From Nostocoides jenkinsii Ben 74 (GTDB lineage Bacteria; Actinomycetota; Actinomycetes; Actinomycetales; Dermatophilaceae), in assembly GCF_001046875.1 (NCBI RefSeq), contig NZ_HF571038.1:980952-1044951 (forward strand): DNA of 64,000 bases, written 5' to 3'. Shown here piece by piece: positions 2 through 30,320 of this stretch. Position numbers and translations under genes: made by a program. Position 1 is the first letter of the stretch; every line of letters begins with the position of its first letter. The notes beneath the pieces were generated by a model. The model ran no database searches. It saw only the letters and a list, made by a program, of their open reading frames with translations, and was not told the origin of the DNA.

Positions 2-1405
2 GCGGGTGCGGCGGGGGCCGGTGCCGGGGCGGCGGGGTCCGCCTTCCTCGCTCGCGAGATCAGGGCGCACGACGGTCTGCTGCCGTATCCCGGCTCCGAT
101 CAGGCAGACATCGGGCTGACGATCGATGCCGTCCTCGGCATGCTCGCCGCGGGCAGCGGGGCGGCGACCGCGCGGGATTCGACCGCGGCCATCTCGGCGC
201 ATGTGGACGACTACCTCGGCCCGACGTTCGGTGCGACCGAGTTGTATGCCGGGCCCGTCGCCAAGACCGCGATCCTGGCGTCCGCCGTGACCGGCGACCC
301 AAGCTCCTTCGGTGGGCACGACCTCGTCGCCGACCTGCAATCCCTGGAAACCGCCGATGGGCGGTATGCCGACCACACGGCATACGGGGACACCTCGAAC
401 ACGTTCACCCAGGCTCTGGGGCTCATCGCGCTGTCGCGCACGGCATCGAAGCCGTCAGTGAATGCAGTGAACTACCTACTGGCACAGCAATGTTCGGACG
501 ATGGCTTCCGGATGTTCCCGGGCGACGGCGCGTGCGTCAGCGATCCGGACGCCACGTCGTTGGCCGTCGTCGCGCTGGCCGCCGTGGGTGGCCAAGACGG
601 CGCCCAGGACGCGGCTGCCCTGCATCTGTCGGCGGCGCAGGAGCCGTCCGGTGGGGTTGTGGGCGGCTCCGGCACGAGTGGGGTCAACGCCAACACGACC
701 GGGCTCGCGGCCATGGCCTGGCGCAGCGCGGGGCGGACGGCCGAGGCAGACGCGGCCGCCGACTTCCTGAGGTCGGTGCAACTCGGATGCGACGCGCCGG
801 CGACGGTTCGTGGGGCGGTTGCCTACGACCCTCAGACGTATGCCGCGCTGGTCGCCGCCGGCTCCCACGCCGTCGCCTCCGACCAGGAGCGTCGGGCTAC
901 CGCACAGGCCCTGCTCGGCCTCGGTTCGGCCGGCCTGGCAACCGTCGCGATTGCCGGCGTGACGGAGGGGGCGGACGGCTGCGCGGGCCCGACGGAGACC
1001 TCGACGAGCACGTCGACGTCGAGTTCGACGACGGCCACAACGGGTTCGACGCCGGTGGCGACTATCACCCACACGGTCACGGCGACCGTGACGCAGACGG
1101 CGACCTCGACCGTGACCGCGGCTCCTGCCGCGGTGACGCACACGGAGACCGCCACGGCGACTCGGACCGTGACGAGCAGCCAGCCTGCCACGCCGAGCGC
1201 GTCGGAAAGCTCTTCTCCGGCAAGCACTTCCGCGCGGGCTGCTAGCAGCTCGGCGCCCTCGGCCTCGGTCTCGGCGACGGCTGCAGTCACGCCCGGCGCC
1301 GCCGAACCCGGCACCTCAACAGCGGCGCTTGTTGCCGCGGGAGCCTTCGTCCTCGCCGGCGCCGCCGGCGCCACCGTCATCCTCCGCCGTGGAAGGAGCC
1401 ACTGA
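2..1405 (+). CDS. Exported alpha/alpha-toroid (prenyltransferase/squalene-oxidase-repeat-like) surface protein, 5' end outside window
   Basis: The frame is already open at the window edge (Ala/Gly-rich, looks like the end of a signal peptide), so the start lies upstream. About 467 residues are visible. The first two thirds carry toroid-type helical repeats such as 'TFTQALGLIALSR' and 'LLAQQCSDDGFR' with paired cysteines. A Thr/Ser-rich stalk follows (about 990-1310), then one hydrophobic segment (about 1318-1380) ending in RRGRSH, which is a C-terminal membrane anchor outside the cytoplasm. Toroids of this type form the alpha domain of eukaryotic cobalamin carriers. The TGA overlaps the next ATG (TGATG at 1403-1407), so it is coupled to an ECF transporter operon. 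Inference: substrate-capture protein; an enzymatic cyclase is unlikely because no DxDD-type motif is seen. Confidence 0.75.
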   Translation, partial: AGAAGAGAGAAGSAFLAREIRAHDGLLPYPGSDQADIGLTIDAVLGMLAAGSGAATARDSTAAISAHVDDYLGPTFGATELYAGPVAKTAILASAVTGDPSSFGGHDLVADLQSLETADGRYADHTAYGDTSNTFTQALGLIALSRTASKPSVNAVNYLLAQQCSDDGFRMFPGDGACVSDPDATSLAVVALAAVGGQDGAQDAAALHLSAAQEPSGGVVGGSGTSGVNANTTGLAAMAWRSAGRTAEADAAADFLRSVQLGCDAPATVRGAVAYDPQTYAALVAAGSHAVASDQERRATAQALLGLGSAGLATVAIAGVTEGADGCAGPTETSTSTSTSSSTTATTGSTPVATITHTVTATVTQTATSTVTAAPAAVTHTETATATRTVTSSQPATPSASESSSPASTSARAASSSAPSASVSATAAVTPGAAEPGTSTAALVAAGAFVLAGAAGATVILRRGRSH

Positions 1406-1953
1406 TGACCGTACGCACCACCCGCCCCCCGACCCCCGCCCAGAACCGCTGGTTCGGGAGTCGCCCCCGGATCGCGGCCACGCTGGGAGCCGCTGCGCTC
1501 GCGACCTCGATGGCGGCGGTGGGGGCTGCGCCGGCGGCGAGCGCGCGGCATACGGTTGGGGACGGGGCCGCCGCCAGTGAGAAGGCGACCGCGTGCCCCC
1601 GCGGCAAGGGGGTGAGCGTCGTCGTCGACTTCGGCACGACCGAGAAAATCTCTTGTGCGAGTGGCGATCCGACGTCCGGGCTGGCTGCGCTACGGGGTGC
1701 CGGGTTCACCGTCGCGATGGTGGCGCGCTTCCCGGCGGCCGTCTGCCGGATCAACGGGCGGCCGACCGCGACACAGGATGCGTGCGTGGTGATGCCGCCC
1801 ACGACGAAGTATTGGTCCTACTGGCACGCCGCGCGTGGCGGGAAGTGGACCTACGCTACGACGAGCGCGGGGAGCTACAACCCGAAGCCGGGCACGGTCG
1901 AGGGCTGGGCGTATGGCGCGGGCAAACCGCCGACGGTAGCGCCGCCGAAGTGA
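1405..1953 (+). CDS. Small secreted SCO2322-like / DUF4430-like protein
   Basis: 182 residues with a long basic N-terminus and signal peptide (about residues 20-48, ending near APAASA). The mature domain runs 'GVSVVVDFG', a Cys pair, 'LAALRGAGFTV', 'CRINGRP', 'YWSYWHA' and 'WTYATTSAG'. That pattern, a beta strand, then a residue-poor middle and a YWxYW end, fits the SCO2322 family found beside actinobacterial ECF transporters, and I judge it similar to DUF4430, the fold of the transcobalamin beta domain. It has no membrane anchor and so is probably a free exported form. It overlaps the toroid gene and the next paralogue (GTG inside its stop region), so all three are co-translated. Substrate unknown. 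Confidence 0.75.
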   Translation: MTVRTTRPPTPAQNRWFGSRPRIAATLGAAALATSMAAVGAAPAASARHTVGDGAAASEKATACPRGKGVSVVVDFGTTEKISCASGDPTSGLAALRGAGFTVAMVARFPAAVCRINGRPTATQDACVVMPPTTKYWSYWHAARGGKWTYATTSAGSYNPKPGTVEGWAYGAGKPPTVAPPK

Positions 1954-2795
1954 GGCGCACCTCCGCCCGCGCTGCGCTACTCGCCACCACCCTCGGGGCC
2001 GCATCGCTGACGTTTGCCGGCCCCGCGGGCGCGGCGACGTGCTCCGGAACCAGCGGGGTGAGCGTCGTCGTCGACTTCGGCGCGCGCGTCCAAACGGGTT
2101 GCGCCGCAGGCGATCCCACGAGTGCGTGGGGTGCCCTGGAGAGTGCTGGTTTTGCGGTGGAAGGGACCCAACGCTTCCCGACCACCTTCATCTGCCGAGT
2201 CGCGGGCTTCCCCACCGCCGACGTGGAGCCGTGCGTGCAGACGCCGTCGGCAAGTGCCTATTGGTCCGTGTGGTCGGCGTCCGCCGGCGGTTCGTGGGCC
2301 TACAGCTCGACGGGCGCAGCCACCCTGAATCCCGCGCCCGGCAGCGTCGTCGGGGTTGCCTTCGGCGCCGGCGCGCAGCCCTCCGTGGCGCCACCCGCCC
2401 CGCCATCCGCGACCACCCCACCGGCGACGACGCCGCCGGCTTCGACGACCACGTCCTCGACCACTCGGCCGCCGACCTCACCGTCAGCCACGGGCACCGG
2501 CTCAGCGCCAGCCTCGACCGCGCCCTCGGCGACGAAGACCAGCTCCGGCGAGGCCTCATCCACGAGCGACCCGCCTGCGTCCTCAGCCTCCGAGGACACC
2601 TCGGCGGCCGGTGCGACCGAGAAGACGACGGATACCTCGGCGCCCGCGACGTCGGCGACCGCTCTCCCCGACTCGGGCACCTCGGGTGGCGCCTCCCCCG
2701 CCCTCATCGTCGGTGGGGGCGCCGGGGTGGGGGCGCTCCTCATACTCGGGGCATGGGTAGTCCGCCGCCAGCGGGACCGCGCCGCCGCGCAGTGA
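1950..2795 (+). CDS. Surface-anchored SCO2322-like / DUF4430-like protein
   Basis: 281 residues starting at a GTG that overlaps the upstream TGA. It has a signal peptide (about residues 1-28, ending AGA), then a paralogue of the preceding protein's domain: 'GVSVVVDFG', 'SAWGALESAGFAV', 'YWSVWSAS', 'SWAYSSTGA'. After residue about 145 comes a Pro/Thr/Ser stalk of roughly 100 residues, then 'LPDSGTSGGAS', a hydrophobic span and a basic tail. LPDSG resembles a non-canonical sortase signal, but a simple membrane anchor explains it equally well. Together with the soluble paralogue and the toroid protein it would present a binding site to the ECF S component. The stop overlaps the GTG of the T component. 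Confidence 0.75.
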   Translation: MRRTSARAALLATTLGAASLTFAGPAGAATCSGTSGVSVVVDFGARVQTGCAAGDPTSAWGALESAGFAVEGTQRFPTTFICRVAGFPTADVEPCVQTPSASAYWSVWSASAGGSWAYSSTGAATLNPAPGSVVGVAFGAGAQPSVAPPAPPSATTPPATTPPASTTTSSTTRPPTSPSATGTGSAPASTAPSATKTSSGEASSTSDPPASSASEDTSAAGATEKTTDTSAPATSATALPDSGTSGGASPALIVGGGAGVGALLILGAWVVRRQRDRAAAQ

Positions 2796-3877
2796 TCCGC
2801 CATCTTCATCCGGCGGCCTGGTGGTTGTGGGCCATCGCCATGGCCGCCAGCGCGAGCCTGGCCACCAACCCGGCGCTGCTCGCCGCGCACGGCCTGGTCC
2901 TGACCGGCGTCGTCATGGCGCGCCGCGACGGGTCGCCGTGGGGGCGCACGTTCCGGCTGTATGCCGCGCTCGGCGCCGTCATCGTCGCCACCCGCGTGGT
3001 GCTGCACATCCTGGTCGGGCTGAAGTTCGGTGAACATCGGCTGCTGCCGCTGCCGCAGGCCGACCTGCCTTCCTGGGCGGCCGGAATCCAACTCGGCGGC
3101 ACCGTCTATCTCGAGGGCGCGCTCGGCGGCGCCCTGGAAGGCGCTCGGCTCGGCATGATGATCCTGGCCATCGGCGCCGCGAACGCGCTGGCCTCGCCCA
3201 AGCGGCTCCTGAAGGTGTTCCCGGCGGCGCTGCACGAGATCGGCTCGGCCTTGGTGGTGGCCGTGACCGTGGCGCCGCAGCTTGCCGAGAGCTTGCAGCG
3301 GGTCGTCCGGGCACGCCAGCTTCGGGGCGAAATGACGCTGCGCTTCAAGGGTTTTCGTTCCGTCGCCATGCCCATCCTGCAGGACACCCTCGATCGCTCG
3401 CTGGCCCTCGCGGCAGCCATGGACGGACGCGGGTACGGCCGCAACGAGCGGGAGTCTGGGCGCCTCACCGGGGCGCTTGCCGCGCTGGGGTTGATGGGGA
3501 CGGCCGTCGGTCTCTATGGCCTTTTGGACACCACGACTCCCGCGGCGCTCGGGATGCCAGTCCTGGTCGCCGGCCTCGCGGCGTGCGTGGCGGGACTGTG
3601 GGCCGGCGGGCGTCGAGTGCGACGGACGATCTATCGGCGGGAGCCGTGGGGTGTCGCCGAGTGGGTGACGGTCGGGTGCGGCGTGGCCGCCTTGGTCGGC
3701 TCCCTCGTCACCTTGCGCCGCGAACCCCTTTCCTTGGGTATGCCGCTGCGTCCCCTCGCCTGGCCCGCCCTCCCCTTGCCCGTGCTGGCCGGGCTCCTGC
3801 TCGCTATCGTGCCGGCCGTGGCCACCCCCGTCCCGCCGTTGTCGAGCAGCCGGGCGACGCGCGAGGTGACGGCATGA
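2792..3877 (+). CDS. ECF transporter transmembrane T component
   Basis: 361 residues, integral membrane (CbiQ/EcfT family). Hydrophobic helices cover the N-terminal 90 residues and the C-terminal 120. The cytoplasmic central part carries the coupling-helix signature: 'RARQLRGEMTLR' and 'AMDGRGYGRNE', the latter matching the conserved AxxxRG motif of T components. The GTG start at 2792 overlaps the TGA of the anchored beta-domain gene. The end overlaps the ATG of the ATPase (ATGA at 3874-3877). It scaffolds the two ATPase domains and the S subunit of a vitamin/metal-type importer. Confidence 0.88.
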   Translation: MIRHLHPAAWWLWAIAMAASASLATNPALLAAHGLVLTGVVMARRDGSPWGRTFRLYAALGAVIVATRVVLHILVGLKFGEHRLLPLPQADLPSWAAGIQLGGTVYLEGALGGALEGARLGMMILAIGAANALASPKRLLKVFPAALHEIGSALVVAVTVAPQLAESLQRVVRARQLRGEMTLRFKGFRSVAMPILQDTLDRSLALAAAMDGRGYGRNERESGRLTGALAALGLMGTAVGLYGLLDTTTPAALGMPVLVAGLAACVAGLWAGGRRVRRTIYRREPWGVAEWVTVGCGVAALVGSLVTLRREPLSLGMPLRPLAWPALPLPVLAGLLLAIVPAVATPVPPLSSSRATREVTA

Positions 3878-5610
3878 GCGGGTGGAGCGACGCGGCATAC
3901 GGAATGGGGGAAGCGGTGCTCGAACTCGACCGCGTCTCGGTCCGCTATCCCGAGGCGAGCGCGCCGACGCTGCGCGAGGTGGACCTGAGCATCGAGGAAG
4001 GCGAGCTCGTGCTGGTCGTCGGACGCACGGGTTCGGGCAAATCGACGCTGCTCGGCACACTGAACGGGCACGTGCCGCACTTCACCGGAGGGCTGCTGAC
4101 CGGCCGCGTGCGGGTCCTCGGGCGGGACACGGCGACGCATCGGCCGCGGGACTTGGCCGACATCGTCGGGGTGGTCGGTCAGGACCCGGTGGCCGGCTTC
4201 GTGACGGACACCGTCGAGGAGGAGCTGGCGTATGGCATGGAGCAACTCGCCCTGCCGCCGACGACGATGCGCAAGCGCGTCGAGGAGACCCTGGATCTGC
4301 TCGGTATCGCGGACCTGCGCGCCGCCCCGCTGCGGGACCTGTCCGGCGGGCAGCAGCAACGGGTGGCGATCGGCTCGGTGCTGACGACGCAGCCACGCAT
4401 CCTGGTGCTCGACGAGCCGACGTCGGCCCTGGATCCGACTGGGGCAGAGGAGGTTTTGGCCACCCTCACCCGGCTCGTGCACGACCTCGGGGTCACCATC
4501 GTGATTGCGGAGCATCGGCTGGAGCGGGTGATTCAGTATGCCGATCGCGTCGTCGAGGTGGTCGACGGCCGGGTACGCTCCGGCTCGCCCGCCGAAATCA
4601 TGCGCGACGCCACTGTAGCGCCGCCGGTGGTCGAGCTGGGTCGGTATGCCGCGTGGTCCCCCCTCCCGGTCAGCATCCGCGACGCCCGCCGCGCCGCCGC
4701 CCCCCTCCGCGCGCGGTTGGGTGGGCTGGGGGCGCCCCTCCTAACTTCTGCTAGCAGAGGTTCGTCAACTGTGGACACCTTGCAAGGTGTCCACAGTTCA
4801 CTAACTTCTGCTAGCAGAAGTTCCTTGACGGTTCCGACCCCCGGAATCCGCGCCACGGGGCTGCGGGTGGACCACGGGCGGGTGCGGGCGGTGCGGGGGG
4901 TGGATTTGGCCGTGCCGGCGGGGCGGGTCACCGCGCTGATGGGCCGCAATGGCGCCGGGAAGTCCTCGCTCCTGTGGGCCCTGCACGGCACCGGCACGCG
5001 CAGCGCCGGCCGCGTCGCGGTCACCGATGGCAGCGACCCGGCCACCTTAAAACCCGTCGCGCGCCGGGCCCGCGTCGGCCTCGTCCCGCAGACCGCCAGC
5101 GACCTCATCTATCTGGATTCCGTTGGCGCCGAATGCGATCAGGCCGACGCCGAGTCCGCCAAACCCACCGGAACCTGCCGCGCCCTCCTGGACGACCTCG
5201 CCCCCGGCATCCCCGCCGACCGCCATCCGCGCGACCTCAGCGAGGGTCAAAAGCTCGCCCTCGTCCTGGCCATCCAACTCACCGCCGGCCCCGACGTCGT
5301 CCTCCTCGACGAGCCGACCCGCGGCCTGGACTACCCCGCCAAGACCCGGCTCGCCGGCATCGTGCGCGGGTTGGCGGGGCACGGCCATACCGTCCTGATC
5401 TCCACCCACGATGTCGAATTCGTCGCCGACGCCGCCGACGAGGTCGTCGTCATGGCCGAAGGCGAGGTCGTCGCCCACGGCCCGACCCCCGACGTCGTGG
5501 CCGCGTCCGCGGCATTCGCCCCGCAGGTCGCCAAGGTGCTCGCCCCCGCCCCACTCCTGACAGTCGCACAAGTCCGGCAGGCACTGGCCGAAGCCGGCGA
5601 TGTCGGATGA
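3874..5610 (+). CDS. ECF transporter double ATPase (two CbiO-type ABC domains fused) with an in-frame palindromic insert
   Basis: 578 residues. Domain 1 has Walker A 'GRTGSGKS', signature 'LSGGQQQR', Walker B 'ILVLDEPTSALD' and H-loop 'IAEHR'. Domain 2 has 'GRNGAGKS', a weaker signature 'LSEGQK', 'VVLLDEPTRGLD' and 'ISTHD'. So one polypeptide supplies both ATP sites. The linker (about residues 290-317) is encoded by a palindromic repeat at 4741-4822 that stays open in frame; see that entry. The gene overlaps the T gene upstream and the S gene downstream by ATGA. The second Q-loop region is unusually long and acidic. Confidence 0.9.
   Translation: MSGWSDAAYGMGEAVLELDRVSVRYPEASAPTLREVDLSIEEGELVLVVGRTGSGKSTLLGTLNGHVPHFTGGLLTGRVRVLGRDTATHRPRDLADIVGVVGQDPVAGFVTDTVEEELAYGMEQLALPPTTMRKRVEETLDLLGIADLRAAPLRDLSGGQQQRVAIGSVLTTQPRILVLDEPTSALDPTGAEEVLATLTRLVHDLGVTIVIAEHRLERVIQYADRVVEVVDGRVRSGSPAEIMRDATVAPPVVELGRYAAWSPLPVSIRDARRAAAPLRARLGGLGAPLLTSASRGSSTVDTLQGVHSSLTSASRSSLTVPTPGIRATGLRVDHGRVRAVRGVDLAVPAGRVTALMGRNGAGKSSLLWALHGTGTRSAGRVAVTDGSDPATLKPVARRARVGLVPQTASDLIYLDSVGAECDQADAESAKPTGTCRALLDDLAPGIPADRHPRDLSEGQKLALVLAIQLTAGPDVVLLDEPTRGLDYPAKTRLAGIVRGLAGHGHTVLISTHDVEFVADAADEVVVMAEGEVVAHGPTPDVVAASAAFAPQVAKVLAPAPLLTVAQVRQALAEAGDVG
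4741..4822 (+). repeat. Palindromic element copy 1, in frame inside the ECF ATPase
   Basis: Three linked palindromes: an imperfect one centred on GCTAGC (4741-4762), a perfect 32-bp palindrome (4767-4798; arms AACTGTGGACACCTTG and its complement) and a perfect 20-bp palindrome AACTTCTGCTAGCAGAAGTT (4803-4822). Related copies lie at 29726-29807 and 30243-30320 outside genes. Here the element is translated as part of the inter-domain linker with no stop. Its A+T content is well above that of the surrounding gene, which marks it as an insertion. Confidence 0.85.
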
Positions 5611-6479
5611 CCGTGCCCCCCGCCCCCGCCGTGCCCCACCCCCCCGCCGAACGCCCGCCCGCCGCCACATCCACCGCTATCCGGCTCCGCGCCCGCTCCA
5701 CCCTGGCGCTGATCCTGGTGAGCCTGGCCGGGGTCATCGCCTTCGGCTGGCCGCTGATCGTCGACCCGGGCTCGGGTCTGGCACACGGCAACGACGCCCC
5801 GTTCGTCTTCGCGCTCCTCCTCCCCCTCCTACTTGCCGTCGTGCTCGCCGAGATCGCCGACGGCGGCCTCGACGTCAAGGCCGTTGCGATGCTCGGCGTC
5901 CTGTCCGCTGTCGGCGCCGTCCTGCGCCCGCTCGGCGCCGGGAGCGCCGGCGTCGAACTCGTCTTCTTCCTCCTCGTGCTCGCCGGCCGCGTGTTCGGGC
6001 CGGGGTTCGGTTTCGTGCTCGGGGCGACCACGCTCTTCGCCTCCGCGCTGATCACGGGAGGCGTCGGTCCCTGGCTCCCCTATCAAATGCTCGGCGCCGC
6101 CTGGGTCGGGCTCGGCGCGGGGCTCCTCCCCCGCGCGCGGGGACGGACGGAGCTGTGGCTGCTCGCGGCATACGGCGGCATCAGTGGTCTGCTCTATGGG
6201 TGGCTGCTCAATTTTTCGTTCTGGCCGTTCGCAATTGGCTCCGGAACCGGCCTATCCTTCGAGCCCGGCGCCAATCCGATCGACAACCTGCACCGGTTCG
6301 CGCTGTTTAGCCTGGCCACGAGTTTCGGCTGGGATCTCGGCCGCGCCCTGACCAATGCCGTCCTCATCCTGCTGACCGGATCCGCCGTCCTGGGCGCGCT
6401 GCGTCGAGCCGTACGCAAGGCGGCCTTCGGTGCTGCCGTCACCTTCGAACCGACCGGCCCTCGACCCGTCGACCGGTGA
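5607..6479 (+). CDS. ECF transporter S (substrate-binding) component
   Basis: 290 residues, starting at the ATG overlapping the ATPase stop. After a Pro-rich cytoplasmic N-terminus of about 30 residues there are six or more hydrophobic segments, as expected of S components, with 'FGFVLGATTLFASALITGG' in the middle, a typical Gly/Ala-rich S-subunit helix. The closest type I can suggest is the CbrT-like/unassigned ECF S group, but the substrate cannot be read from sequence. It is the last gene of the six-gene overlapping operon. The two exported beta-type proteins and toroid protein suggest that it receives a ligand pre-bound outside the membrane. Confidence 0.82.
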   Translation: MTVPPAPAVPHPPAERPPAATSTAIRLRARSTLALILVSLAGVIAFGWPLIVDPGSGLAHGNDAPFVFALLLPLLLAVVLAEIADGGLDVKAVAMLGVLSAVGAVLRPLGAGSAGVELVFFLLVLAGRVFGPGFGFVLGATTLFASALITGGVGPWLPYQMLGAAWVGLGAGLLPRARGRTELWLLAAYGGISGLLYGWLLNFSFWPFAIGSGTGLSFEPGANPIDNLHRFALFSLATSFGWDLGRALTNAVLILLTGSAVLGALRRAVRKAAFGAAVTFEPTGPRPVDR

Positions 6480-6492: not shown

Positions 6493-7029
6493 ATGAACCT
6501 GGATGTCGAACGTCGCGAAGCCTGGCTCAGCCACGAGGAGCTCGCGTCCGTCCGCGGCCGGATGCCCATCCTGTATGTCGATGCCGTTCCCGTCCGCGTC
6601 GATGGCGGGGGCGCCGTCACGTCGATCGGCCTCCTTCTGCGGGCGACCGATGGGGGCCGCATCCAGCGCGAACTCGTCTCCGGTCGCGTCCTCTTCCACG
6701 AGCGGATCCGAGACGCGCTGCTCCGCCACATCGAGAAGGACCTCGGCCCGGTGGCGCTCCCCCAGATTCCCGTGAGTCCGGTTCCGTTCACGGTCGCCGA
6801 ATACTTCCCCACCCCCGGGGTCACCGCCTTCCACGACCCGCGCCAACATGCCGTCTCATTGGCCTTCGTCGTGCCCGTGGCCGGTGATTGCGCGCCGCAA
6901 CAGGATGCCCTCGACCTCGCCTGGCTCACGCCGGACGAGGCGCTTGATCCCGCGGTGCTGGCCGAGATGGACGGCGGTCACGGGGTGCTGCTTCGCCAGG
7001 CCATCGCGCACCTCGGCCACGCCATCTGA
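6493..7029 (+). CDS. NUDIX-like DUF4916 family protein
   Basis: 178 residues. The N-terminus 'WLSHEELASVRGRMPILYVDAVPVRVD' and the NUDIX-type strand 'SIGLLLRATDGG' fit the actinobacterial DUF4916/NUDIX group. The classical NUDIX box (GxxxxxExxxxxxxREUxEExGU) is not visible; its place is taken by 'RVLFHERIRDALLRHIEKDLG', so hydrolase activity is uncertain. The gene follows the ECF operon after 13 bp with its own possible promoter and converges on exonuclease III. Function unknown, possibly nucleotide-sugar or nucleotide binding. Confidence 0.65.
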   Translation: MNLDVERREAWLSHEELASVRGRMPILYVDAVPVRVDGGGAVTSIGLLLRATDGGRIQRELVSGRVLFHERIRDALLRHIEKDLGPVALPQIPVSPVPFTVAEYFPTPGVTAFHDPRQHAVSLAFVVPVAGDCAPQQDALDLAWLTPDEALDPAVLAEMDGGHGVLLRQAIAHLGHAI

Positions 7030-7065
7030 CGCCGCAGCCAACCCGACGACCAGCCAGCCGAAGCC

Positions 7066-7935
7066 TCAGAAGTCGTAGTCCACGGAGACCGGGGAGTGAT
7101 CGCTGATGCGCACACCGTCGGTCTCCCGGTCCACCCACGCGCGCACGGCAGTCCGCGCCAACCCGGGCGACGCGAAGTGGTAGTCGATCCGCCAACCCGA
7201 GTCCACGGCATACGAATTGCCCATCCAGGACCACCAGGAGTAGGGACCGGGCTGGTCCGGATGTAGCCGTCGCACGACATCGACAAAGCGGCGCGGGGAC
7301 AGCAACTCGGCCAGCCACTCCCGCTCCTGCGGAAGGAAGCCGACCGACTGGCGCGAGCGACGCCAGGCAGCCACGTCGAGTTCGCGATGCGCCACATTGA
7401 AGTCCCCCATCACGATGAACTCGCGTCCCTGAGCCGCCGCCGCGCGCCGTGAGCGATCCAGATGTCGGCTCAGCCCCGCGGCAAACCGCATTTTCCGGTC
7501 GTATGCCGCGCCCCCGTCCGGCGCCTCGCGCATCCTTCCCGGCTTCTGCAGGTGCGCCGGCAATCCTCCCTTGGGTACGTACACACTCGCCACGGTGAGC
7601 GGAATCTCGGCGAGATCGATCTCGAGATAGCGCCCTTGGTCGGCGGCGGCGCGCAGCTCACGGGCGACCGGACGGTCATACCCGTCGGAATGGAGCGTGC
7701 GCACCGCCACCGGAGCGTGCCGGGTGAGCACCGCCACCCCATTGCGGCCCGCGCGCACCCCCGAGTCGTATGCCGCGTGGTAGCCCCCGAAGGCATCATC
7801 CGGCAGGTCCCCTTCCGGGCAGCGAACCTCTTGCAGCGCAACAACATCGGGGTTCGTTGCCTGCAGCCAGGCGCCGAACCCGCGGCGCTGGGCGGCGCGG
7901 ATCCCGTTGACGTTGACCGTTGCGATGCGCAGCAC
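7066..7935 (-). CDS. xth: Exodeoxyribonuclease III family AP endonuclease
   Basis: 289 residues. Acts on abasic sites and 3'-blocked ends in base excision repair. Catalytic motifs of the exonuclease-endonuclease-phosphatase fold are complete: 'NVNGI' with the metal-site Asn, 'ALQEVR' with the metal Glu, 'GDFNV', 'WRIDYHF' and the terminal 'SDHSPV' with the catalytic His. The GTG start is supported by TAGGCT seven bases upstream. It converges with the NUDIX gene. The GTATGCC motif occurs three times in the gene (7207, 7501 and 7768). Confidence 0.93.
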   Translation of the reverse strand: MLRIATVNVNGIRAAQRRGFGAWLQATNPDVVALQEVRCPEGDLPDDAFGGYHAAYDSGVRAGRNGVAVLTRHAPVAVRTLHSDGYDRPVARELRAAADQGRYLEIDLAEIPLTVASVYVPKGGLPAHLQKPGRMREAPDGGAAYDRKMRFAAGLSRHLDRSRRAAAAQGREFIVMGDFNVAHRELDVAAWRRSRQSVGFLPQEREWLAELLSPRRFVDVVRRLHPDQPGPYSWWSWMGNSYAVDSGWRIDYHFASPGLARTAVRAWVDRETDGVRISDHSPVSVDYDF

Positions 7936-7942
7936 GACCGGC

Positions 7943-7948
7943 AGCCTA
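7943..7948 (-). promoter_or_regulatory. -10 box, leaderless promoter of exonuclease III
   Basis: On the reverse strand TAGGCT, then 7 bases, then the GTG start codon at 7935. The spacing places the transcription start on the GTG. Confidence 0.55.
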
Positions 7949-7995
7949 TGTGTCCCGTCCGGCGCAGGGGATCTGCCTTTCGCGGGTCGTCTGCC

Positions 7996-8748
7996 CTAGG
8001 AGTTGAACTCGTCCTTCGTGCGGGTCATGTCGTGCAGGTCGGCCGCGGCGGCCTCCTCCACTGTCGGAGCCGTGCCGCCGAGGCGGGCGGGCAGATAGCG
8101 CAGGTCGGCACCGGTCAAGCGCGGATAGGCCGCCTGCTGACGGTCGAGTTGCTCCTGCATGGCCGCCTTCAACCGCGCCGTCGCCTCATCGACATTGCTC
8201 CCCCGCTCGACCACGATGGGCTCGCCGATCTCGACGAAGATCGGGATGCGACTGCGACCGCGATGCTTCGGCGCGTCCTTGGTCCAGACCCGATGGGCAC
8301 CCCACAGGGTGGTGGGCAGCAGCGGCACCCGGGCGTCGCGAGCCATTCGCGCGGCGCCCGACTTGAACTCCTTCAATTCAAAGCTGCGCGACATCGTCGC
8401 CTCGGGGAAGACCCCGACGATCTCGCCGGACTTCAGGGCGGCGAGAGCCTCTCGATAGGACCCGGCGCCATTGGCTCGGTCGACCGGAATGTGTCCCATC
8501 CCCCGCATGAGCGGGCCGGCGATCCGATGCTCGAAGATCGACTTCTTGGCCATGAACCGGACGTAGCGGTGATTCGTTTGGGCGGCCAGCCCGGCATACG
8601 TGAAATCGAAGTAGCTCGTGTGGTTGATGGCCATGACGGCCCCGCCGGTGCGGGGCACATTGTCCGCGCCCACGATCGTGAACTTCAGGCCCTGCGCCCG
8701 GAAGACTCCCTTGGTGAAGGCGATGACGGGGGCATACACGGGCTCCAT
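7996..8748 (-). CDS. 1-acyl-sn-glycerol-3-phosphate acyltransferase family protein (PlsC-like)
   Basis: 250 residues. Transfers an acyl group to lysophosphatidate in phospholipid synthesis, at the membrane face. The acyltransferase boxes are present: 'INHTSYFD' (NHxxxxD), 'MGHIPVDR', 'VFPEATMSRS' (FPEGTxS with Ala for Gly) and 'LLPTTLWG'. No strong membrane helix is seen beyond the N-terminal part, so it is peripheral. The start is set by the ATG that follows a TAACCT box by 7 bases. The promoter region is shared with divergent recC. Confidence 0.88.
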   Translation of the reverse strand: MEPVYAPVIAFTKGVFRAQGLKFTIVGADNVPRTGGAVMAINHTSYFDFTYAGLAAQTNHRYVRFMAKKSIFEHRIAGPLMRGMGHIPVDRANGAGSYREALAALKSGEIVGVFPEATMSRSFELKEFKSGAARMARDARVPLLPTTLWGAHRVWTKDAPKHRGRSRIPIFVEIGEPIVVERGSNVDEATARLKAAMQEQLDRQQAAYPRLTGADLRYLPARLGGTAPTVEEAAAADLHDMTRTKDEFNS

Positions 8749-11800: not shown

Positions 11801-12217
11801 ATTGTCGGGCGGTGGGGCACCCGGCCTAAGCGCATCTCGTTGGCGCGCGTCGCCGCGCACCCTGCCCGGGTCTTTCTCGAAGATCTGATCGAGTTGCGCG
11901 ACCTCGGCCTGACCAGACCGCTCGCCTTTGCCCCGCGCACCTCCCTGGCCTACGCCAAGCACGTCTATCGGGCCAAGAAGCCGACGGACGCGGCCCTGGC
12001 GCGGGCGCGTGACGAGTGGGCGCGCAGCCACGATCGCGACGCACCATCGGTGACCTATCTCTATGGCGCCTCGTCGTCTTTGGACATCTGGCTGGACCCC
12101 GTGCCGCCCGACGAGTTCCTGGAGGCACTCCCGGCGGACAGCGCGCCCCCGTCGCGATTCGGCTACACGGCCATACGGGTCTGGCGGCCCGCGCTGTATT
12201 CGGGGGCCGACAAATGA
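8816..12217 (+). CDS. recC: Exodeoxyribonuclease V gamma subunit RecC
   Basis: 1133 residues. Helicase-like subunit of RecBCD that holds the DNA ends and scans for Chi. The diagnostic N-terminus 'VIVPARGVERWLTQRL' is clear, as are 'ILIMCPDVETYAPLI' and 'VTVCTMVPMRSVPHRVI...LLGLDDGVFPR' around 10740-10830 (CTMVPMRSVP motif). The GTG start is chosen because TAAGGT lies 7 bases upstream and the protein then begins just before the conserved first strand. The stop overlaps the recB ATG. recC and recB are unusually poor in the GTATGCC repeat (three hits in 7 kb up to 15590). Confidence 0.93.
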   Translation: MALHLHRATRTDLLAEGLAALLATPPADPFATELVIVPARGVERWLTQRLSHRLGAVSGDDGVCAGVRFLSPNSLTTLLLETDRDDPWLPDQLVWPLLETIDASLSYAWAAPLAAHLGFPGGRPDDVFRHGRRYSVARRLAGLFHSYATQRPGVLRSWEAAGPDGPWDDGAGGSVPVDLAWQPRLWRAVVTRLGLPTPTTRHDATVARLTTDPDSFDLPARVSLFGHTRIPVSELELLRAGAIHREVHLWLPHPSPALWGRLAATGDAGPTPRRADASQLVVEHPLLVSLGRDLRELQRQLRVAGPALDDEIQTPTAPPRSWLAWLQADLRADAVPDCAAAAARRIGPDDLSIQVHACHGQARQVEVLREALVGLLADDETLEPRDILIMCPDVETYAPLIHAAFGLADIRFDGPAHPGHLLRVQLADRSLAASNPLLAVAARLVELSRGRFAAAELLDLAAAEPVRRRFRFDDDDLERFARWVEQAGIRWGLDAEQRADFNLGNLGANTWRFGLDRLLLGVARAEEPGRPYQRVLPVDDVDSGTLDLVGRVAEFVDRVAAFREAANAASLATDWTRTLIDGTNALTEVPLDELWQRAEVERELTLSPRGDHLPLAHSDIRALLAHRLEGRPGRTNFRTGSLTVCTMVPMRSVPHRVIALLGLDDGVFPRRGAPDGDDLLAREPMTGERDARSEDRQLLLDAVCAATQTLVLTYSGADPQTGAARPPAVPVGEFIDAARAARGIGPDDPDGAPVIRHPLQSFDEATRRSPGGAPATFDPQAVPAVTAVRAARSSARTTNRRRPAPGLVLPGPLPASAADDVTLAQLHDFFADPTRAFLRDRVGVAVRRDDESAAAGIPIELDPLEKWGLGDRLLQQRLSGAGIAEIETAERLRGQLPPGGLGSATLRAVGTTADTIADEVAGALGAALATQPARTADIELDLGGRRLTGTVGRVRGTSYLHATYASLSGKQILETWINHLALCASAGPGEAWTSEIVGRWGTRPKRISLARVAAHPARVFLEDLIELRDLGLTRPLAFAPRTSLAYAKHVYRAKKPTDAALARARDEWARSHDRDAPSVTYLYGASSSLDIWLDPVPPDEFLEALPADSAPPSRFGYTAIRVWRPALYSGADK

Positions 12218-15200
12218 CCGATTCGATCCCCAGCGAGCGCGTGGCGGAAGTGGGACCCGCCGCCTTCGACATAAGCACACCCTTCAACATCACCGCGCCC
12301 TTGCCGCGCGGCACCACGGTGCTGGAGGCCTCCGCCGGCACCGGCAAGACCTGGGCCATTGCCGCCCTCGTGGCGCGCCACGTCGCCGACGGCCTGCCAC
12401 TGGATCAGCTGCTGGTCGTCACCTTCGGGCGCGCCGCAACCGAAGAGCTTCGCGAACGCGTGCGCGAACGCCTTATCCGCGCCGAGCGACTGCTGCGCGA
12501 TGCCCTGGCCGGTCGCGCGCGCCCCGACCGTCTCGACCGGCTGGAGCGCACGCTGCTCGGCGAGTTCGATCCCGTGGACACGGACGTCCTGCGGTGCCGT
12601 CATCTGCGCATCCGGGACGCCCTCGGGGCCTTCGACGACGCCACCATCGCCACCATTCATCAGTTCTGCCATCTGGGACTGCGCAGTCTCGGCGTGGCCG
12701 GCGACACCGATCCCGACACGACGCTGATCGAGGACCAGAGCGACCTGCTGCACGACGTCGTTGATGACCTCTACCTCGCCCGCTATCGCGCGGTCGAAGT
12801 GGTCCCGTTCACCCATGCCGAGGCGCGCGAGATCGCGGAGTTAGTGGCCGGCGATCCCGCCGCGGCGATCGGCCCCGACAACGCGCCGGACGGGTCCTAC
12901 GACGAGGAGCGAGTGAGATTCGCCGAGGCCGTGCGTGCCGAACTCACCACCCGCAAGCGGCGACTCGGACTGCTGTCGTATGACGATCTGCTCGCCGACC
13001 TGGCCCACGCCTTGGCCGATCCGACCTCCCCGGCACGAGCGCGCATGCGCGCTCGGTGGCGCGTCGTCCTGGTCGATGAGTTCCAGGACACCGATCCCGT
13101 GCAGTGGCACGTCTTCGAGCGGGCCTTCCACGGGCACTGCGACCTCGTCCTGATCGGCGATCCGAAGCAGGCCATATACGCCTTTCGCGGCGGCGATATC
13201 GACACCTACCTCCGGGCGCGCCACGTGGCCGACCAGCTGTTCACGCTCGATGTCAATCGGCGGACGGACGCACCGCTGGTGGACGCAGTCGGCGTTGGTC
13301 TCGGCGGAATGAGCCTCGGCCATCCCGAGGTCGTCGTGCATCCGGTCACCGCGAGCCATCGGACGTCACGGTTGGTCGGGTTGCCCGCGCCACATCCGTG
13401 GCGGATGCGGGTGCTGGACCGAGGAGCCCTGGGCGTCGGCCCCGGAGACCTGGGGCGGGTGGATACGGCCAGGCCGACGATCGCGGCCGACTGCGCCGCC
13501 GACATCGCCATCACGCTCGGTTCCGGCGCGAACTTCGACGGGCGTCCGATCGCGCCCGGCGACGTGGCGGTGTTGTGCGCGACCAATGCGCAACTGCGCG
13601 CGGTCCGCAAGGCTCTTGCCCGCATCGGCATTCCGGCGGTGCTCGCCGGTGACGAGAGTGTCTTCCACTCCCGGGCCGCGCAATGGTGGCTCCGGGTCCT
13701 GGAGGCGATGGAGTTCACCAACCGCGCCGATCGAGTCCGCTCGGCCGCGCTGACCCCCTTCTTCGGTGAGTCCATCGCCACCTTGGACGCGCGTGGCGAC
13801 GAGTTGACGGATTCCGTGGCTGCGACGCTTCGCCGCTGGGCCGAGTTGTTCGCGCTGCGCGGCATACCCGCGGTGCTGGCGGCGGCGCACGCAGGAGGGT
13901 TGGGCACCCGGCTCCTTGCCCAACCCGGCGGCGAGCGCGACTACACCGACGTGCACCACCTGGCCGAGATCCTGCACGACACGGCAACGCGTGATCAGGG
14001 TGGCTTTTCAGCACTCACCGCTTGGCTGACCTCCCAAGTGGCCGGGTCTGGCGGACGCACGTCCGGGGAGCGCAGCCGCCGGTTGGAGAGTGACGGTGCC
14101 GCCGTGCAACTCGCCACCGTCCACGGCAGCAAAGGACTCCAGTTCCCGATCGTCTATGCGCCGTTCTTGTGCGATCGGTTCGTACGCGGCTTCGAGGATG
14201 ATCGACGGGCGATCGGGTTGCGCTACCACGACGACTCCGGGACGCGGGTGGTCGACGTGAGCACTGGCCCCGATCTCGCGACCTTTACTCGCGCACGCGC
14301 CGAGGACGACGGCGAGAACCTTCGCCTCCTGTATGTCGCGCTGACCCGGGCTCAAAGCCAACTCGTGACCTGGTGGGCTCCGCTGACCACCACCCGCGCG
14401 TCGTCTCTGCATCGGGCCATGTTCGGGCGCGGCCCCGGCGGCGTCGGCGCCCCCGAGGGGGAATGTGCCGTCCCCAGTGACCGGATGGTCCACGACACCT
14501 TCACCCAATGGAGTCAGCTCGGGGGCCCGCACCTCGAGCGGCTCGACCCAACCCAGGAACCGCCACGGGTGGCCATGGTCCCGGATGTCACGCCGGCCCT
14601 CGCCTCGACCTTCAGCCGCTCGGTCGACCCGCACTGGCGCCGGACGTCCTACACCGCGCTGACCAAGGCAGCCGATGCGGCCCTCGCCACCGGCACCAAA
14701 CCGGCGATCGAGCCGGAGTTGCCCGGCAAGGACGACGAGTCACCCGCCGCTGAGCTCCTGCCGCAAACGCACCATCGCCCGACCGACGACCGTCCTGGCC
14801 TGGGGACGGAGGCCGCGACGCAAGTCGGGCCCGGGGTGGGCACGGAAGTCGGCACTGAGGTCGGCACCGAGTCTGGCGCTGAAGTCGGCACCGAGTCTGG
14901 CGCTGTGGTCGGCCCCGAACTCATCGCGGCGGCGACTCCGTCCCCGATGGCGGGCCTGCCGGTCGGGGCGGCGTTCGGCTCCCTCGTCCATGCGGTGCTC
15001 GAGACCGCCGACCCGGAGGTGGCCGATCTGCGCGCGGAGTTCGCCCGGTGCATCGCCGAGCAACTGCCGAGATGGCCGGTCGACCTGCCGACGGCCCAAC
15101 TCGCCGACGCGCTCGTCGCGGTAGTGACCACCCCGCTGGGGCCGCTTGTCCCCGGGGCGACCCTCGCGGCCATACCGACCCGAGATCGATTGTGCGAGTT

Positions 15201-29725: not shown

Positions 29726-29807
29726 TTCCTAACTGCTGCTAGCAGCAGTTAGGAAACTGTGGACACCTTGCAAGCTGTCCACAGTTGACTAACGTGTGCT
29801 GAGTTGA
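29726..29807 (+). repeat. Palindromic element copy 2
   Basis: A 30-bp perfect palindrome centred on GCTAGC (29726-29755), then a near-perfect 32-bp palindrome with one mismatched pair (29755-29786, arm AACTGTGGACACCTTG), then a decayed third palindrome (CTAACGTGTGCTGAG). Same order and orientation as copies 1 and 3. Intergenic between the DinB-like gene and doxX; may act as a transcript-end hairpin. Confidence 0.85.
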
Positions 29808-30242: not shown

Positions 30243-30320
30243 TTGACTAGCTGCTGCTAGCAGCAGTTAGTCAACTATGGACACCGTGCAAGCTGTCCAC
30301 AGTTGACTAACTTGTGCTGA
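30243..30320 (+). repeat. Palindromic element copy 3
   Basis: A 32-bp palindrome centred on GCTAGC with one mismatched pair (30243-30274), then the GTGGACA-type stem (30273-30304, imperfect: ATGGACACCGTGCA) and the remnant CTAACTTGTGCTGAG. Together with copy 2 it frames doxX as a direct repeat. It lies just beyond the end of the DEAD helicase gene. Confidence 0.85.

Follow-up and report, generated by a model that had tools for sequence, protein, structure and literature searches.

The closest described counterparts of the system considered here, a six-gene operon at positions 2-6479 of a stretch of the Nostocoides jenkinsii Ben 74 genome (G000:C1:980952-1044951; 64,000 nucleotides, analysed as a whole and referred to below as the window), belong to the transcobalamin-like clade of SLBB proteins. 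Burroughs et al. 2007 (PMC1796856) described secreted transcobalamin-like beta proteins and alpha/alpha-toroid proteins whose operons also contain genes for a CbiO-like ATPase and a CbiQ-like protein, reported fusions of beta and toroid domains in either order as well as paralogous beta genes within one operon, and proposed that such proteins scavenge vitamin B12 at the Gram-positive surface and that the animal carriers are of bacterial origin. The operon described here and its relatives have in common with that clade the secreted beta and toroid proteins, their fusions, the paralogous beta genes and the ATPase and T genes of energy-coupling factor (ECF) type. The examples given there derive from Bacillus, Desulfotomaculum, Clostridium, Moorella and archaea and commonly have the domains fused, whereas the proteins reported here are mostly separate and membrane-anchored, are encoded by Actinomycetota, lack a Pfam DUF4430 match and are accompanied by a documented S gene and riboswitch. 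With a probability of roughly three in four, the Nostocoides operon encodes a surface-capture system together with an ECF importer for cobalamin or a close corrinoid.

An initial sequence-only reading of the window had regarded a two-part surface carrier delivering its ligand to an ECF S subunit as new. Since Burroughs et al. 2007 (PMC1796856) had already described beta/toroid operons with CbiO/CbiQ genes and proposed a role for them in B12 scavenging, the idea is not wholly new. Theirs was the only direct precedent among the matches listed in a literature search from which subscription journals were mostly absent, and in the literature thus covered SCO2321-SCO2325 were not named in such a role. 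What is added here is the mostly split, anchored actinobacterial form, evidence on fold that sequence models do not provide, the identification of the S gene, and a phylum-wide link to a riboswitch.

Two further systems invite comparison. Animal transcobalamin, haptocorrin and intrinsic factor consist of the same two folds, and their beta domains are the best matches of the predicted model of the first beta protein (beta1); however, the animal carriers are one soluble chain, whereas two or three proteins, partly membrane-anchored, are present here. ECF-CbrT of Lactobacillus is a proven ECF importer for cobalamin and cobinamide (PMC5997447). Both systems are of ECF type, yet the ATPases are fused here, the S family is without sequence match to solved proteins, and CbrT is described, in the accessible text, without surface toroid or beta proteins (PMC5997447). 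The NCBIfam families SCO2321_fam and SCO2322_fam contain relatives of the window proteins, which nevertheless score under the curated cut-offs, and the family names carry no function. A predicted cobalamin ECF system, CbrTUV, was reportedly put forward by Rodionov et al. 2009, and its SEED names are said to include a duplicated ATPase, CbrU. Such a duplicated ATPase would presumably fit the fused A-A protein of the window, to which it is likened here by name. To our knowledge, surface proteins are not part of the CbrTUV prediction.

Layout of the operon

All six genes are located on the plus strand (Table 1), with successive overlaps of 1, 4, 4, 4 and 4 bases according to the sequence and the list of open reading frames. 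The initial reading of six overlapping genes in the order toroid-beta-beta-T-A-A-S was confirmed, and this gene order is not due to chance, as the same genes are found in the same order in other genera. Base 1 of the window falls inside the first gene and is directly preceded by exactly 100 N (L003 12853-12952); three more runs of exactly 100 N were encountered in the 55 kb of this genome that were read. The run before the window thus has the appearance of a gap in the assembly, of undefined length, and the start of the toroid protein, its signal peptide and the operon leader are consequently out of sight.

Table 1. Positions of the operon genes and of a dispersed repeat in the window
Feature	Position	Strand	Start codon	Description
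Toroid protein, SCO2321-like	2..1405	+		5' end cut by window; predicted domain of alpha/alpha-toroid type, stalk rich in Ser/Thr and membrane anchor at the C terminus
beta1	1405..1953	+	ATG	Small exported beta protein without C-terminal anchor; predicted transcobalamin beta-domain fold
beta2	1950..2795	+	GTG	Second beta protein; stalk and C-terminal membrane anchor
T subunit of ECF transporter, CbiQ-like	2792..3877	+	GTG	Pfam CbiQ match
Fused A-A ATPase of ECF transporter	3874..5610	+	ATG	Two ABC_tran stretches
S subunit	5607..6479	+	ATG	Predicted substrate-binding membrane protein; Pfam ECF_trnsprt
Palindromic dispersed repeat	4744..4821			Linker between the two ATPase domains of A-A; outside the mechanism

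Exported toroid and beta proteins

The window toroid matched SCO2321_fam with an E value of 1.5e-20 (73.5 bits; curated cut-off 300), and beta1 and beta2 matched SCO2322_fam with E values of 8.2e-7 (29.5 bits) and 6.3e-6 (26.6 bits), respectively (curated cut-off 85). Despite these low scores, the resemblance of the window proteins to the two families is clear at the sequence level, and the respective models matched 48 of 49 toroid and 82 of 83 beta sequences. The stalk of both the window toroid and beta2 is rich in Ser and Thr and is followed by a C-terminal hydrophobic segment with a basic tail; among the homologues counted, 46 of the 52 toroids and 55 of the 76 betas have a hydrophobic segment at the C terminus. 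Beta1, to which beta2 is 50% identical over the domain, possesses a signal-like N terminus, as assessed (like all signal peptides here) only by eye and hydropathy, and terminates where its domain does. Four cysteine positions are conserved, in 82, 82, 83 and 83 of the 83 betas, which fits export of the domain.

A profile of the beta family, when compared with PDB sequences, retrieved only weak matches, namely to antibodies and others (best E 0.067). The AlphaFold2 model of window beta1, based on an alignment of 83 sequences, was predicted with a local distance difference test score (pLDDT) of 93.8 and a template modelling score (pTM) of 0.88. Among 350,542 PDB chains searched with Foldseek, ranks 1-10 were occupied by transcobalamin and haptocorrin (E 4.2e-3 to 0.16, probability 0.98-1.00). 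Structural comparison by VIA returned transcobalamin, haptocorrin, intrinsic factor and RUMGNA_00854 of the gut bacterium Ruminococcus gnavus as a top group at ranks 1-15 (Z 9.2-10.1, root mean square deviation 2.9-3.1, 93-95 residues), the next row having a Z of 6.6. The assignment of a transcobalamin beta-domain fold to beta1 holds for this predicted structure.

Matches to Prenyltrans and SQHop_cyclase_C of Pfam were obtained for 42 and 36 of 49 toroids, respectively, and to PF01122, the eukaryotic cobalamin-binding family, for five (best E 0.0062), counting E values up to 0.1. Structure prediction was performed on a homologous, natural beta-linker-toroid protein, encoded in locus L135. The alignment used (A9) contained many slightly trimmed L135 copies as guide rows, with both domains aligned, while a larger alignment (A10), in which the toroid start was aligned less well, was left unused. 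The resulting model contained both folds (pLDDT 80.4, pTM 0.66, linker below 50), the toroid part being a well-predicted alpha/alpha toroid. The proposal that the operon combines an ECF importer with both transcobalamin-type folds, carried by distinct exported proteins, was supported.

Importer subunits and B12 requirement

The T subunit matched Pfam CbiQ with an E value of 7.7e-4 and 19.6 bits, under the cut-off of 25, whereas the S subunit exceeded the cut-off of ECF_trnsprt (PF12822; 31.8 versus 30.7 bits) and had no CbiM match in Pfam. The fused A-A protein, in which both ABC_tran stretches were recognised by Pfam, also gave an ECF_ATPase match. Judged from these assignments, T, fused A-A and S in one operon correspond to the make-up of an ECF transporter. 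The palindromic repeat in the linker of A-A is a member of a repeat pair that recurs at window positions 4744-4821, 29732-29783 and 30250-30301 and, as judged by eye, at L003 ~12196-12255.

The genome, which is 98.9% complete, encodes MetH, the B12-dependent methionine synthase, along with four mutase-family matches, and CobN and CbiC were not found in it. The organism probably imports its corrinoid.

Cobalamin riboswitches upstream of related operons

In the window's family, the cobalamin riboswitch model RF00174 of Rfam was matched upstream of the toroid match and on the same strand in 16 of 18 loci, with scores from 51.8 down to 23.1 bits and nine of the 16 over the Rfam cut-off of 31.5. 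No other Rfam clan was detected at an E value of 0.5 or better in the 63 kb of these 18 loci. For 29 genomes behind named loci, the same model was matched before the operon or its toroid in at least 26, of which 14 were over the cut-off, and the leaders of the remaining three genomes (L096, L122 and L131) were found by a covariance model of our own. The latter was derived from 14 leaders: 13 had been detected with Rfam ahead of family toroids, and one precedes a second toroid of the Nostocoides genome. The typical core of a cobalamin riboswitch and the B12 box are present in the 14-leader alignment.

A 15-protein profile of the S subunit yielded 564 confirmed relatives in a collection of named genomes, the best 80 of which (loci L056-L135) constitute a sample that leans to close relatives. 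Across these 80 loci (1.4 Mb), at least four of which (L056, L065, L084 and L098) contain leaders used to build the model, our covariance model produced 87 matches with E values below 1e-3 in 64 loci. Seventy-eight of the 87 were positioned at most 1 kb upstream of a toroid gene (58), a beta gene (17) or a T gene (3) and on its strand, as compared with ~7.2 expected under even placement, and the median distance from leader to start of the domain match was ~100 bases. When counted by operon, from gene lists that omit the fused beta of L073 and L102, a riboswitch was located before or inside the gene run in 62 of 80, while 14 operons begin at most 700 bases from the locus end and four had none by this rule. 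In L060, one of these four, only S was recognised; the L121 locus starts 712 bases before T; and in L097 and L123 a riboswitch is located further upstream. The substrate had initially been deduced from fold analogy only; the fold stands, and beyond it the cobalamin riboswitches of these 62 related operons now point to the same vitamin.

A search for a cobalamin riboswitch upstream of the window, suggested along with the initial reading, was successful in the family, in a same-genus genome (L011 2612-2680; 26.1 bits, under the Rfam cut-off) and before the second toroid of the genome itself, whereas the window's own leader is situated behind the 100-N run. Within the window, Rfam found no family, and a match by our own model (10.7 bits, E 0.96) was taken as chance. 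We infer that a riboswitch also precedes this operon.

The second toroid gene of the genome (L005 7487-8691; G000:C1 ~73.5-74.7 kb) encodes a protein without C-terminal anchor and is preceded by a cobalamin-riboswitch-like leader of 27.8 bits, under the Rfam cut-off. A same-genus genome (G011:C2) likewise has a second toroid, with a leader of 39.4 bits, and no T or S gene was recognised next to it in the 18 kb read (L052). Further riboswitch matches were observed beside the operon, not preceding toroid, beta or T, at L089 11045-11233, L096 12730-12862, L103 11996-12202, L110 12318-12448 and L132 2160-2258. An Rfam cobalamin match of 32.9 bits elsewhere in the Nostocoides genome (L004 10086-10242; G000:C1:3012085), located by a 100-N run and an IS3-like transposase with no recognised toroid near, was discarded.

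Conservation and natural fusions

A search with the SCO2321 model in 59 genomes of the window's family returned matches in 21, some of them weak and, in cases such as G050 and G018, not confirmed by annotation as belonging to this operon. In 14 of 20 stretches around the family SCO2321 matches, T, A-A and S were recognised together with one or more beta genes, and 13 of these 14 also contain a toroid, with L053 having betas only. The arrangement toroid-beta-beta-T-A-A-S of the window is reproduced in the same-genus genome G011 (L041). Taxa represented among the best 80 of the 564 S-profile relatives include Knoellia, Janibacter, Nocardioides, Kribbella, Streptomyces, Amycolatopsis, Lentzea, Saccharothrix, Micropruina, Acidimicrobiia and others, and 69 of the 118 sampled genomes of the window's class encode the S protein (E<=1e-20).

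Toroid and beta domains were found in one frame in seven of the 149 toroid or beta frames of L056-L135 (L068, L073, L074, L079, L102, L105 and L135), and an eighth such frame is present in L036, from the window's own family. The toroid precedes the beta in L036, L073, L102 and L105, where the profile matches abut or overlap with no membrane segment between them, and this order is shared with animal transcobalamin. The L036 protein (6891-8474; G025) is a single-chain toroid-beta with a signal-like start and no anchor, and its gene heads an operon that encodes another toroid along with beta, T, A-A and S, while the L073 and L102 fusions carry an anchor at the C-terminal end. The reverse, beta-first order is found in L135, L074 and L079. 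The L068 frame, composed of toroid, anchor, signal-like segment and beta, has the appearance of two merged genes. The existence of natural fusions in either order supports a common ligand for toroid and beta, and joint action is the interpretation favoured by these one-frame sequences.

Of the 63 frames that gave a long toroid match, 11 contain two toroids in tandem (L079, L089, L096, L100, L103, L108, L110, L114, L122, L124 and L131), and in L079 a beta domain is located ahead of the tandem toroids in the same frame.

Proposed function and alternative explanations

According to the function proposed here, the toroid and beta2 would be held on the outer membrane face by flexible stalks, with beta1 being exported without an anchor. 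We infer that toroid and beta bind corrinoid, most likely between them, in the manner of the alpha and beta domains of transcobalamin, and captured corrinoid would raise the local concentration available to the S subunit. The T/A-A motor would then reset the S subunit with ATP, bringing the corrinoid in, and in relatives the cobalamin riboswitch would shut the operon when B12 is plentiful. As to how capture proceeds, we lean slightly towards a two-part clamp, in which the anchored toroid and a separate beta would pair by closing on extracellular cobalamin and pass it directly on to the ECF S subunit.

Several observations weigh against this assignment. The betas had been called DUF4430-like, a description that is upheld by fold (Foldseek and VIA on the beta1 model) and fails by sequence, as Pfam DUF4430 was matched by none of the 83 beta sequences at E<=0.1; moreover, no Foldseek match of the beta1 model fell below an E value of 0.001. 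Similarly, the alpha/alpha-toroid fold is retained, on the L135 model, while that model comes structurally closest to class II terpene cyclases (VIA Z 24.4), transcobalamin appearing at Foldseek ranks 21, 33 and 49 only and being absent from the VIA top 50; with such nearest solved folds, the toroid fold alone does not say B12. No solved protein, CbrT included, was matched by the S family among PDB sequences at E<=1. Many leaders score under the Rfam cut-off (seven of 16 in family loci and 12 of 26 among the named-locus genomes). Nine operons with riboswitch and beta (L078, L086, L094, L101, L104, L111, L120, L133 and L134) are without a toroid in the locus, and the toroid may therefore be dispensable or sited elsewhere. 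Finally, cobalamin riboswitches in other bacteria also control cobalt and precursor genes, so that cobalt, cobinamide or a lower-ligand precursor are conceivable substrates.

This last point leads to the strongest alternative, which we nevertheless regard as unlikely, namely that a cobalamin precursor or cobalt (cobinamide, lower-ligand base or Co2+) is imported in place of intact cobalamin and that the surface proteins bind that ligand. The same riboswitch evidence and the CbiQ-like nature of T are consistent with such a substrate. However, cobalt alone would be of little use to a genome without CobN and CbiC, the beta fold is that of binders of intact cobalamin, and S belongs by its Pfam match to PF12822 and not to CbiM.

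Considerably less probable is that toroid and beta are cell-wall or adhesion surface proteins, co-transcribed with a B12 importer of which they are not part. Their stalk-and-anchor build, the existence of beta-only operons and the position of some toroids downstream of S are in line with this explanation. On the other hand, toroid or beta genes located apart from the operon keep their own cobalamin riboswitches (e.g. L100, L103, L106, L119, L132 and L135) and are thereby linked to B12 in their own right, and both the specific fold match of beta and the toroid-beta fusions argue against a function unrelated to import. Least probable of all is that the toroid is a secreted enzyme of class II terpene cyclase type that modifies the ligand, with beta only a scaffold: although terpene cyclases are the nearest folds and a D-x-D-[AGST]-T stretch, which we liken to the cyclase DxDD site, occurs in 35 of 49 toroids, the window's included, the D-x-D-D motif itself occurs, counted anywhere in the sequence, in only three of 49, and the toroid is exported, mostly anchored and riboswitch-linked.

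Implications

If correct, the two-part clamp on cobalamin would represent a surface carrier stage for ECF importers that is widespread in Actinomycetota, shares its two folds with animal transcobalamin and has natural single-chain relatives with the transcobalamin domain order. The proposed corrinoid import as a whole provides a likely function for two named but unexplained families, SCO2321 and SCO2322, as well as for the S-protein family present in more than half of the sampled genomes of the class. The separate halves and the natural single-chain versions of this transcobalamin-like clamp are offered for binding and structure work, and the origin of the animal B12 carriers can be viewed against this bacterial counterpart. 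The finding also points to a way in which actinobacteria could acquire corrinoids, among them B12 users that lack the biosynthesis genes CobN and CbiC.

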